A DNA stretch of 13,812 bases, taken from assembly GCA_002399225.1 (NCBI GenBank), contig DHDF01000007.1, positions 16,934 to 30,745 on the forward strand, written 5' to 3'. The DNA is from a bacterium UBA4883. GTDB taxonomy: Bacteria > Bacillota > Clostridia > Oscillospirales > Acutalibacteraceae. The stretch's first letter is position 1. The number at the start of each line of letters is the position of its first letter. A program made the position numbers and the translations under genes. Below are positions 1,103 through 4,586 of this stretch, in pieces. The notes under the pieces were generated by a model that was given only the letters and a program-made list of their open reading frames with translations, was not told the DNA's origin and ran no database searches.

Positions 1103-2008
1103 TTGAAACTTTTTCGAAATCGATCCCTTACCGCCGAGTTGGGGATTGTGCTGGTCACTATGATATGGGGAAGCAGTTTTGTCGTTGTAAAAAGCGCTGC
1201 AGACTCCATTCCTCCCGCGACGATTATCACCCTTCGATTCGGCATTGCGGCGGTTTTGCTTTGTCTTTTCTTTTTTCGTCGGCTGAAAGAAATCAAATGG
1301 TCCCATATCAAGTGGGGGCTACTGATTGGGTTACAAAGCTTTGTGGCTTATGAGTTACAGACAATGGGTGTGAAATACACGACTGCCGGAAAAAATGCGT
1401 TTTTAACTGCGGTCTACTGCGTCATTGTACCATTTCTGTACTGGGCCATAAAAAAGCAGAAACCACGTGCTTTTCATTTGATCTCTGCTTTTCTTTGTAT
1501 GGCCGGCGTTGGGTTTCTTTCCGTCCAAAGAAATTTTTCCATGAATCCGGGGGATTTGCTCTCCCTCGCATGTGGACTGTTCTTTGCCATACAAATTGTA
1601 ACCATCGGTATTTTAACCGAAAAGAATGACCCTATACTGCTCTGTATCACTCAGACGGCCGCTACTGCTCTGTTTGCCCTGCCATTCGCGCTTTTTGCCG
1701 AAAAAGCCCCCTCTGCCATGCCGGTGCAGTCCATTTTTCCTCTGCTTTATCTGGGTGTTGTGGGCACCATGCTGACCACCGTTCTTCAAAATGTCTGCCA
1801 AAAATACACCGAACCTTCGAAAGCATCCTTGATCATGTCCTTAGAATCGGTCTTCGGCACCCTCTGCGGCATTCTCTTTCTGCACGAATCTCTTACTCCC
1901 CGGTCTTTCGGCGGATTTCTGCTGATTTTTCTGGCCATTATGCTTTCGGAGCGGGGAGATCTTCTTTTTTCTCCTCATAGGAAGCTGAAAACGGGGCAGA
2001 ACGGTTAG
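1103..2008 (+). CDS. DMT superfamily (EamA family) membrane transporter
   Basis: A 301-residue, very hydrophobic protein with the two-repeat architecture of EamA drug/metabolite transporters, about ten membrane helices in all. The first repeat spans roughly residues 10-140 (IWGSSFVVVKSA near its start, ITLRFGIAAVLL in helix 2). The second spans roughly 150-285 (LLSLACGLFFAIQIV, then SLESVFGTLCGILFLHE near the end). The SLES/E-F-L-H-E pattern in the last helices is typical of the family. The start is TTG at 1103, supported by AGAGGTG with a 5-nt spacer; the next methionine is already inside helix 1. The tail is short and basic. The substrate cannot be read from sequence: EamA members export amino acids, nucleosides or other small metabolites. 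It has its own promoter and terminator, so it is probably monocistronic. Confidence 0.92.
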   Translation: MKLFRNRSLTAELGIVLVTMIWGSSFVVVKSAADSIPPATIITLRFGIAAVLLCLFFFRRLKEIKWSHIKWGLLIGLQSFVAYELQTMGVKYTTAGKNAFLTAVYCVIVPFLYWAIKKQKPRAFHLISAFLCMAGVGFLSVQRNFSMNPGDLLSLACGLFFAIQIVTIGILTEKNDPILLCITQTAATALFALPFALFAEKAPSAMPVQSIFPLLYLGVVGTMLTTVLQNVCQKYTEPSKASLIMSLESVFGTLCGILFLHESLTPRSFGGFLLIFLAIMLSERGDLLFSPHRKLKTGQNG

Positions 2009-2052
2009 GCTGTTTTTTGGTCGCTTTTCTCCGGCCAATCCCGCCAATCCTG

Positions 2053-2082
2053 GCGCCGCTGTAAATGCAGCGGCGCTTTTTT
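2053..2082 (+). terminator. Rho-independent terminator after the EamA gene
   Basis: GCGCCGCTG (2053-2061), a 6-nt loop, CAGCGGCGC (2068-2076), then six T. This is a perfect 9-bp GC-rich stem. The T-run adjoins the -35 of the next gene's promoter. Confidence 0.9.
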
Positions 2083-2110
2083 GAACCGTAAGTCTCATTC
2101 CGCATAATAT
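2081..2110 (+). promoter_or_regulatory. Probable promoter of the asparagine-synthetase-like gene
   Basis: TTGAAC (2081-2086) starts inside the T-run of the upstream terminator. CATAAT (2103-2108, 16-nt spacer) or TAATAT (2105-2110, 18-nt spacer) serves as -10. The leader to the ATG at 2142 would be only about 25 nt, with a very strong SD (AAGGAGGAGG, about 2127-2136). This shows that transcription signals in front of the gene are intact. Confidence 0.5.
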
Positions 2111-2141
2111 GGTTAATGGAATCAGAAGGAGGAGGTTCGAT

Positions 2142-3755
2142 ATGTGTGGAATTGCCGGTTTCTGCAATTACAATGAAGATTTTACGGAAGAAACCCCGTT
2201 TCTTGGTCAGCTTGCCCGGCGTATGGGGCACACGCTTCGGCACCGCGGACCTGATGAAAGCGGGGTTTTTGTTTCAAACCATGCCGCTTTTGCCCATCAG
2301 CGGTTTGCAGTGATCGACCCCAAAGGCGGAAAACAGCCGATGACCGCCTATGCAGGCGGCTATCGGTACACAATTGTTTATGATGGTGAACTTTACAATG
2401 CCGATGAGCTTCGACGTGAATTGGAAACCATCGGCTATCTTTTTGAGACTAAAAGCGATACGGAAACTTTACTCAAATGCTATATCCACTATGGAGCCGA
2501 ATGTCCCAAAAAACTGAATGGAATCTTCGCATTTGCCATTGACGATGAAAAACGGAACCGCTGTTTTCTCTGCAGGGACCGGTTCGGCGTCAAGCCGCTG
2601 TTTTTCACTCAGGCCGACGGACGGCTTGTTTTTGGCTCAGAGCTTAAGGCGCTGTTTCAATACCCGGGAATCCATCCTGTGTTAGATCGCCAGAGCCTTT
2701 GTGAAATTTTTGGTCTTGGCCCCTCTCATACCGCCGGGATCGGGGTCCTAAAAGGAATTTACGAAATCAAGCCCGGATATTTTACCCTTTTTAAGTTCAC
2801 AGGGAATAGCCGGTATTTTCAGCCGACGGCCCTCCAGCCAGATACCGACAGTCCTTGGGCGGAAAAAATGGCAGAGTACTGCGGAACGAATCACACCGTT
2901 CTGAAATGCGATAACCTGAGCCAGGCTGATAAACTCTACGACGTAGTCGATGCAAGAGACATGCCTGGCATGGCAGATGTAGATTCCTCTTTCCTGCATT
3001 TTTTAAGTCTGGTGAAGAAAGAGCATTCGGTCGCAATCAGTGGAGACTGCGCTGACGATATTTTCGGCGGCTACCCTTGGTTCTGCCAAAAAAGGCCATG
3101 GAAAGCACATTGCTTTCCATGGTCCCACAGCCTTTCCATACGCACGAACTTGATCAAACCGGAAATCAACGATGTGCTCAATGTGGCCGGATATGTTCAC
3201 CAGCGGTATGAAGAGTCCCTTGCAGAAGTGCCAAAACTGGAAAACGAGAGTCCCCAGGAGGCGCGCCGCAGAGAGATTTTCTACCTGGATCTCAAGTGGT
3301 TTATGAGAACCCTGTTGGAGCGGGACGACCGCATGGGTATGGCAAGCGGCCTCGAAGTTCGCATTCCTTATGCGGATCACCGGATTGTGGAGTACGTTTT
3401 TAATGTTCCGTGGAATTACAAATGCCATGACGGCGTTGTGAAAGGCCTGCTCCGGGATGCCGCGCGCCCTTGGCTGCCTGATAAAATCCGGCTGCGCCGA
3501 AAATGCCCTTACCCCAAAACATGCAACCCGGCCTTTGAGCGAATCCTCCGCCGCCGGTTCGATCTGGTGATAAAAGACAGAGAGGAACCCCTTCATCCGC
3601 TGATCGATTCCAAAGCGGCAGATCATCTGCTGCATATGAAATTTGATCCTGACAGACCATGGTTTGGGCAATTGATGGCAGGGACGCAAATGATCGCCTA
3701 TCTGCTTCAAATCAATTACTGGCTGAAAACATACGAGATTGAAATTGAGCTGTAA
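2142..3755 (+). CDS. asnB-like: AsnB-family glutamine amidotransferase/synthetase, internally deleted (no ATP-binding PP-loop)
   Basis: The 537-residue product starts MCGIAGF, giving the N-terminal Cys nucleophile of class II glutamine amidotransferases. The start is ATG 2142, not an in-frame GTG-type start at 2109, because Cys must follow Met and AAGGAGGAGG precedes it. The glutaminase domain (about 1-205) keeps Arg54 (HQRF), Glu83 and Asp106 (SDTE), but YNGE has become YDGE (Asp81). After GYFTLFKFTG (about 212-221) the protein jumps to NSRYFQPTALQPDTDSPW. From memory, the clostridial family is about 610-615 residues, and the missing 75-80 residues include VSDVP and SGGLDSS, the PP-loop that binds ATP. 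The family's SGECADEIFGG appears as SGDCADDIFGG, which puts Asp at the catalytic Glu. The C-terminal half (RRREIFYLDL, DDRMGMASGLEVRIPY, RRKCPYPKT, RPWFGQLM) is well conserved. Aspartyl-AMP formation looks impossible. It could be a recent pseudogene or a repurposed glutaminase-like or regulatory protein. Family is certain; function unknown. Confidence 0.9.
   Translation: MCGIAGFCNYNEDFTEETPFLGQLARRMGHTLRHRGPDESGVFVSNHAAFAHQRFAVIDPKGGKQPMTAYAGGYRYTIVYDGELYNADELRRELETIGYLFETKSDTETLLKCYIHYGAECPKKLNGIFAFAIDDEKRNRCFLCRDRFGVKPLFFTQADGRLVFGSELKALFQYPGIHPVLDRQSLCEIFGLGPSHTAGIGVLKGIYEIKPGYFTLFKFTGNSRYFQPTALQPDTDSPWAEKMAEYCGTNHTVLKCDNLSQADKLYDVVDARDMPGMADVDSSFLHFLSLVKKEHSVAISGDCADDIFGGYPWFCQKRPWKAHCFPWSHSLSIRTNLIKPEINDVLNVAGYVHQRYEESLAEVPKLENESPQEARRREIFYLDLKWFMRTLLERDDRMGMASGLEVRIPYADHRIVEYVFNVPWNYKCHDGVVKGLLRDAARPWLPDKIRLRRKCPYPKTCNPAFERILRRRFDLVIKDREEPLHPLIDSKAADHLLHMKFDPDRPWFGQLMAGTQMIAYLLQINYWLKTYEIEIEL
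3096..3122. repeat. Perfect 12-bp inverted repeat inside the asnB-like gene
   Basis: CCATGGAAAGCA, a 3-nt loop CAT, then TGCTTTCCATGG. The arms are exact reverse complements, so RNA or single-stranded DNA would fold into a tight hairpin. The right arm encodes the family-conserved C-F-P-W stretch. The left arm encodes P-W-K-A at a place where relatives carry unrelated residues. Confidence 0.9.
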
Positions 3756-3787
3756 AAATTCTCTGTTCCACCAAGCTCTCTTTTGCA

Positions 3788-3831
3788 AAAAGAGGCCGAT
3801 CTGAGCTATAGATGCTCAACCGGCCTCTTTT
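3788..3831. terminator. Bidirectional terminator between convergent genes
   Basis: AAAAGAGGCCG (3788-3798) pairs with CGGCCTCTTTT (3821-3831) as an 11-bp stem. The 22-nt loop holds a small inner GAGC/GCTC stem. The A/T ends give a T-run on both strands, serving the asnB-like gene (+, ends 3755) and the NlpC/P60 gene (-, ends 3837). Confidence 0.85.
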
Positions 3832-3836
3832 CATAA

Positions 3837-4520
3837 TCACGCAGCAGAATTTGAAGAAGGAACAACCATTGCACCTGTCTGATCAAAGGTATAGACAACC
3901 CCGTCAATCGTCCTCGAAGTATCGACAAGATACTGACCGTTTTCGTAATAATACTGACGCCCTTCAAAGGTCACAAAGCCGTTTTCCGGGTAACTGATCT
4001 GTGGAAGCTTAAACCATTGGGTCCAGTGGTATTTACCTCCGATCACTTTTCCGCACTTCATGTTCTCACCTGTGCAGCGGTTGTCCATTTCTTGGTTGTC
4101 GCCTATGTAAACTCCCACATGGCCCGGACTGTAAAGAATCAACCCATGAATTCTCGGCAGCGTGGAAGAATCCGAAAGGTTGATCGTTCCGCTGGTCTTT
4201 GCGGAGGCCAGCATCGAGCGGGAACTCCCCGCCACCGCAACCAGACCCGGCTGCGGATTGCAGTTATCCCCCCGCCACCACAAGTAGGATTTGATGAGTC
4301 CGGAACAGTCACTGCAGCGGACACCGCCGACATACTGACCGTAATACCCATATCGGTACTGCCAGCTACCCTGGTACGCCTCCACGGCATGTTCTGACAG
4401 TCCAACACCCGTTTTGGCTTCCGCGGCGGAAGCGGGAGCAGAATGGAAAGCAAAAACCCCAAGAAAAACAAAACTTACCAAAAATGCGATTGCCAGACTC
4501 ATTCCGCGCTTCCAACCCAT
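3837..4520 (-). CDS. Secreted NlpC/P60 peptidoglycan hydrolase with wall-binding repeats
   Basis: A 227-residue exported protein. Residues 1-32 form a Sec signal peptide: positive charges WKRG, a hydrophobic run to about 24, and a probable cleavage after PASA. The NlpC/P60 domain (about 40-178) shows catalytic Cys72 in CSDCSGL and His134 in SPGHVGVYIG. The third polar residue probably lies in the following QEMDN segment. Five cysteines (69, 72, 87, 149, 156) are unusual for an exported Firmicutes protein. Residues 181-220 (GFVTFEGRQYYYENG, then VVYTFDQTGAMV) look like short choline/glucan-binding-type wall repeats. I chose ATG 4520 because AGAAAGGA, a full anti-SD match, lies 8 nt upstream; the upstream in-frame ATGs at 4541 and 4529 lack a well-placed SD. 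It probably cleaves stem peptides of peptidoglycan outside the cell. It is a single gene with its own promoter. Confidence 0.87.
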   Translation of the reverse strand: MGWKRGMSLAIAFLVSFVFLGVFAFHSAPASAAEAKTGVGLSEHAVEAYQGSWQYRYGYYGQYVGGVRCSDCSGLIKSYLWWRGDNCNPQPGLVAVAGSSRSMLASAKTSGTINLSDSSTLPRIHGLILYSPGHVGVYIGDNQEMDNRCTGENMKCGKVIGGKYHWTQWFKLPQISYPENGFVTFEGRQYYYENGQYLVDTSRTIDGVVYTFDQTGAMVVPSSNSAA

Positions 4521-4586
4521 CGGATACATCCTTTCTCTCATCGTCCTGCTGCTTGATTACGTCCTTTTAATAAGTATTACAAATTG

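Follow-up and report, generated by a model that had tools for sequence, protein, structure and literature searches.

Does an asnB-like gene that has lost its ATP-binding loop and kept an open reading frame still encode a useful protein, or is it what remains of a gene that its host has ceased to need? The question is raised by a window of 13,812 nucleotides, the whole stretch of DNA analysed here, which belongs to contig C41 of a bacterium in the same genus as Caproicibacter, represented by a draft genome of 156 contigs that is rated 56.1% complete. Three other genomes of the genus were compared (G001, G002 and G003), as was a set of 120 homologues listed out of the 7986 proteins passing the search, the window protein being among the 120.

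The asnB-like frame and its missing stretch

The frame encodes 537 aa, or 548 aa if an alternative in-frame ATG at 2109 is used. As an earlier note on this DNA had stated, its 537 codons hold no stop, and no frameshift was found either. The nucleophile Cys following the initiator Met is retained (MCGIAGF), C2 being invariant in an alignment of 45 sequences. The curated model of the family (TIGR01536, glutamine-hydrolysing asparagine synthase) still calls the product an asparagine synthase, at 377.1 bits against a cut-off of 267.1, despite the lost ATP site. The earlier note also took promoter, Shine-Dalgarno sequence and terminator to be intact, which stands in part: a Shine-Dalgarno-like site and a hairpin are visible (Table 1), but the hairpin is absent from the list of the terminator scan, and the promoter scan, which gave a site at 2081-2108, counted four sites where shuffles average 2.1 (sd 1.3), not clearly an excess over chance.

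Table 1. Features of the asnB-like gene and its immediate surroundings (positions in the window).
Feature	Position	Strand	Remarks and basis
asnB-like frame	2142..3755	+	glutamine amidotransferase domain and truncated Asn_synthase domain, 537 aa
Glutaminase part (GATase_7/GATase_6)	2142..2657	+	nucleophile Cys2 present
Remaining Asn_synthase domain	2835..3725	+	Pfam profile 55-353 of 354
Shine-Dalgarno-like site AAGGAGGAGG	2126..2135	+	by eye, from sequence
Terminator-like hairpin, between asnB and convergent gene	3787..3831	.	by eye, from sequence
Deletion junction, 80 codons / 240 nt missing, in frame	2775..2795	+	alignments; one aligner run: 2789/2790
Codon 81, N81D (NGELYN motif; Asn in at least 99% of other homologues)	2382..2384	+	aligns with N74 of E. 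coli AsnB
Codons 302-306, DCADD, homologues ECADE (SGExxDE motif)	3045..3059	+	alignment
Perfect 12-bp inverted repeat, 3-nt loop, inside asnB	3096..3122	.	repeat scan and comparison with relatives

Aligned by MAFFT with ten relatives, the window protein showed a single 80-residue gap, located between L216 and F217. A second alignment was likewise short of 80 residues, with the gap edges slightly shifted (reference residues 213-296); outside the deletion, identity to the nearest relatives found is about 75-80%, too low to place the breakpoint with single-base precision. The frame indeed runs from GYFTL directly into FKFTGNSRYFQPTALQPDTDSPW, and the proposal that one in-frame deletion accounts for the length was borne out by the single gap against full-length relatives. 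The 75-80 missing residues that had been predicted agree with the 80 found, but the full length is 617 aa and not the expected 610-615. In keeping with the gap, the Pfam Asn_synthase match starts only at profile position 55. The PP-loop motif SGG[LIVM]DSS is present in 119 of the 120 listed proteins, the sole exception being the window protein; it occurs nowhere in that protein, so that the loop is gone, as had been claimed, and has not been relocated. Adenylation should then be impossible, a point on which the chemistry of the family supports the earlier reading. An origin of the deletion in long direct repeats was considered and discarded, none of at least 12 bp having been found in 2000-3900.

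Structure models were calculated with AlphaFold2 for the intact orthologue from G002 (P0005) and for the window protein. The former, with 44 sequences, had a mean pLDDT of 87.3 and showed strands in its second half at residues 213-218, 221-226, 264-267, 293-299, 330-336, 377-379 and 485-487. The missing stretch wholly holds the strands 221-226 and 264-267 and the helices 239-256 and 272-287, and the strands 213-218 and 293-299 lie partly inside it. For the window protein, with 45 sequences, the mean pLDDT was 64.6, and beyond residue 189 the model lacked any strand of at least three residues, a result to be read with the reserve that AlphaFold2 judges large deletions poorly. It agrees with a loss of the synthetase fold, the core of the synthetase domain being predicted to be incomplete.

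The locus within the genus

The order asnB, unnamed gene, murF, murE and radical SAM gene is identical in the window and in G002, and in G001 and G003 the same downstream genes lie beside the 3' half of asnB; the labels murF and murE were assigned from the sequences, the radical SAM name comes from a search. The window asnB is thus in orthologous position, homologous and syntenic with an intact-looking gene. In G002 that gene is in one piece, encodes 617 aa and is about 75-76% identical to the window gene on either side of the deletion; at the protein level, the 617-aa relatives from the same genus (P0002-P0005) are 78-79% identical to the window protein. We regard it as confirmed that the window gene is an orthologous asnB with a real in-frame deletion.

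Some observations concern the neighbourhood. The unnamed gene beside asnB (3837-4541, minus strand, 234 aa) is 70-71% identical in G001, G002 and G003, and gave no Pfam match at E 1e-5. Upstream of asnB lies an EamA-type transporter gene (1103-2008), for which no tblastn match at 1e-8 was obtained in the compared stretches of G001, G002 and G003; the upstream flank is therefore unlike the downstream one, which is conserved. In another genus of the family (G121, L024) a murF-like gene, 64% identical, stands directly downstream of a 617-aa asnB, so that the asnB/murF neighbourhood may predate the genus. A cell-wall substrate for the 617-aa type would be a guess.

In both G001 and G003, the orthologous asnB is split near codon 393 by a prophage, with GGAC as the shared core at the insertion. 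The inserts are about 37.2 kb long in G001 (L053 7260 to L052 13447) and about 36.5 kb in G003 (L055 5971 to L054 7005). Phage major head, portal, terminase and tail genes were found in the G001 insert, and a large serine integrase (phrog_95) in both; that of G001 also matched PF00239, PF07508 and PF13408, the family-library search in the G003 insert covering its integrase only. Where the two inserts can be aligned, they are 80-91% alike; no alignment was obtained for the genes close to the integrase, which in G001 include those for an Eco57I-type methylase and a ResIII-type protein. Excision of the prophage might restore the interrupted asnB in these two genomes. We rejected the idea that the window gene is a scar of the same prophage, since the insertion near codon 393 is far from the deletion and the window aligns with the intact G002 gene codon for codon at that place. 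In the four genomes of the genus, asnB is hence intact and in one piece once, interrupted twice, and once deleted and degraded. Of the 120 listed proteins, the window protein included, 111 have a length of exactly 617 aa, and in one genus the gene has been disabled in two ways, by a deletion in the window lineage and by a prophage in two other genomes; this suggests that the genus can, at least at times, do without the 617-aa amidotransferase. Literature searches returned no paper on asparagine synthetase in Caproicibacter. For an in-frame-deletion pseudogene with a PP-loop, only a cereal genome-editing paper was among the matches listed, and for prophage or serine integrase sites the asparagine synthetase gene was absent among those listed.

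The genome of the window also holds a second AsnB type, present as two pieces close to the ends of contigs and probably the halves of one gene; the piece with the synthetase domain (L004) keeps SSGVDSS and SGEGADE. G001, G002 and G003 each have one 617-aa-type locus and one locus of a different AsnB type, whose open frame spans 624-629 aa. A search for asnA as a backup gave no match in any of the four genus genomes, the control matching in 2 of 14, and a megablast search for plasmid copies in 72,556 plasmid records gave no match.

Damage and selection outside the deletion

Of 183 alignment columns in which 99% or more of the homologues agree, 16 are altered in the window protein; 3 of these fall among the 74 columns before the junction and 13 among the 109 after it; the count is based on 120 listed of 7986 matches and excludes columns with fewer than 100 homologues or with a gap in the window protein. 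In a leave-one-out comparison, the other 119 listed homologues differed at five or fewer of the near-invariant columns, with a median of 0. Three of the 16 altered columns bear on mechanism and place changes in both active sites. In the glutaminase part, the Asn of the NGE motif, expected of a functional AsnB-type amidotransferase, has been replaced (N81D). Asn-74, its counterpart, forms the oxyanion hole. In a study of the human enzyme (PMC6748925), Asn-74 is described as part of a network for substrate recognition and thioester stabilisation, and Glu-364 as needed for catalytic activity. By correspondence of the SGE motif, Glu-364 occupies the position of E302D, and together with E306D this change makes the SGExxDE motif read SGDCADD in the window protein.

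The inverted repeat inside the gene (Table 1) has a 3' arm similar to the relatives and a 5' arm that differs from them. It is likely the scar of a template switch (quasi-palindrome) that kept the frame. The same repeat is listed as terminator-like on the minus strand.

For estimates of selection we used our own four-taxon codon likelihood with a topology picked from control genes; the asnB pieces of the split relatives (G001 and G003) were ended before the prophage boundary. For the whole of asnB, omega was 0.114 on the window branch against 0.048 in the background (2dlnL 14.8), absolute values that are rough owing to the four taxa, the control-gene topology and near-saturated synonymous sites (2.2-3.2 neutral units on the window branch). 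When the two sides of the junction were measured separately, as the earlier note had proposed, omega was raised after the junction (0.143 vs 0.051, 2dlnL 13.2) and not significantly so in the glutaminase part before it (0.066 vs 0.042, 2dlnL 1.4). Four neighbouring genes taken jointly gave 0.088 on the window branch vs 0.082 in the background (2dlnL 0.3), and 2dlnL values of 0.0-1.1 singly. An omega of 1 on the window branch was rejected for asnB (2dlnL 97.2), for its N part (50.3) and for the rest (47.4). Selection on asnB thus appears to have been relaxed in the window lineage, although omega for the branch as a whole stays far below 1; most of this branch may predate the loss. The loss can hardly be called simply very recent, as had been suggested: after the junction omega is about 2.8-fold that of the background, so that the relaxation went on long enough to add tens of missense changes.

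Counts of unique changes point the same way. In asnB, 74 of 516 codons carry an amino-acid change unique to the window, compared with 6, 12 and 10 in the three relatives; in the control genes the figures are 95 of 1641 codons and 36, 56 and 60, respectively. Synonymous unique changes are raised as well in asnB (62 vs 21, 33 and 38), more than in the controls (126 vs 85, 117 and 98), so that part of the excess is divergence. By a rough hand estimate, 74 x (1 - 0.048/0.114), the neutral excess amounts to about 40 changes. Neutral simulation of this excess left the gene without a stop in about 11% of 600 runs, before indels, and simulation of 20 missense changes did so in 38%, for the whole gene. 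For a neutral relic, an open frame is therefore slightly unexpected, without settling the matter.

A gene being lost or a protein retained

On balance, the window asnB is probably an early-stage pseudogene, a dead or dying gene; gene loss of this kind is ordinary and common. The lineage would have started from a 617-aa AsnB-family gene next to murF and murE, as in its relatives from the genus. Selection on it would have relaxed, and a 240-bp in-frame deletion would have taken part of the synthetase-domain core with the ATP-binding PP-loop; residues of the glutaminase and synthetase sites would have changed too, with no order set between deletion and substitutions. The open frame would most likely be a leftover: a deletion that keeps the frame brings in no stop, and alongside a few tens of missense changes no more than one or two stops would be expected. 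Besides the deletion, the orthologous position, the excess of near-invariant changes and the raised dN/dS, the data show a further AsnB-type piece with a PP-loop in the genome of the window; in addition, the prophage splits the gene in two of the three other genomes. That both activities are lost, that the protein misfolds and that the gene is dispensable and without function is what we infer.

The maintained frame leaves a minority chance that the shortened protein is made and kept for an ATP-independent role, such as binding, regulation or a weak glutaminase activity, its synthetase part being newly constrained. Cys2 is kept, near-invariant changes are sparser before the junction than after it, dN/dS is not significantly raised in the glutaminase part, the Shine-Dalgarno-like site and the hairpin terminator are visible, and the protein is listed on 4 contigs. 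However, the residue equivalent to Asn74 of E. coli is Asp, and the deletion removes part of the synthetase core, where the model has no strand. The same deletion, which the earlier note had proposed to look for in related genomes, occurs in none of the other 119 listed homologues (120 listed of 7986), so that related species give no hint of the short form having been retained for long. The retained non-synthetase function that had been offered as an option, especially a retained glutaminase, is weakened by the altered near-invariant columns, which include both active sites. We consider such retention unlikely, and it seems rather doubtful that the gene now encodes a maintained AsnB pseudoenzyme without ATP site and with both catalytic centres changed, acting as a non-catalytic protein beside murF and murE.

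Two further explanations draw on the quality of the draft genome. With little more than half of it recovered, an intact copy might lie in the missing part and the window gene would be a spare; we find this very improbable, as no second copy of the 617-aa type was seen in the genome of the window (G000), and G001, G002 and G003 carry one such locus each, plus one different AsnB type. Fragmentation into 156 contigs could also have produced an artefact of assembly or strain mixture. Yet the identical 537-aa protein appears on 4 contigs according to the database listing (the longest of 418,985 bases, that of the window of 46,194), which makes an assembly slip unlikely, no direct repeat of at least 12 bp that could collapse was found in 2000-3900, and the gene has separate damage outside the deletion. 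An artefact is thus hardly to be expected.

Several known systems invite comparison. In sequence, domain order and Cys2, the window protein is like the AsnB-family glutamine-hydrolysing amidotransferases (TIGR01536; GATase_7 + Asn_synthase), but it is without 80 residues including the PP-loop and has N81D, E302D and E306D. Its best match by sequence among solved structures is the hydroxyamidotransferase 7ylz (318.3 bits; E. coli AsnB, 1ct9, 109.1 bits), which aligns on both sides of the deletion, with 96 residues between the two aligned stretches where the window protein has 18. With the 617-aa relatives of the same genus it shares the locus, in the case of G002, whereas the PP-loop is kept in all 119 other listed homologues. 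In-frame internal deletion is a known kind of pseudogene formation in bacteria. With pseudogenes formed in this manner the window gene has in common the open frame, the lost enzyme core and an excess of changes at near-invariant sites; unlike them, it has as yet acquired neither a stop nor a frameshift.
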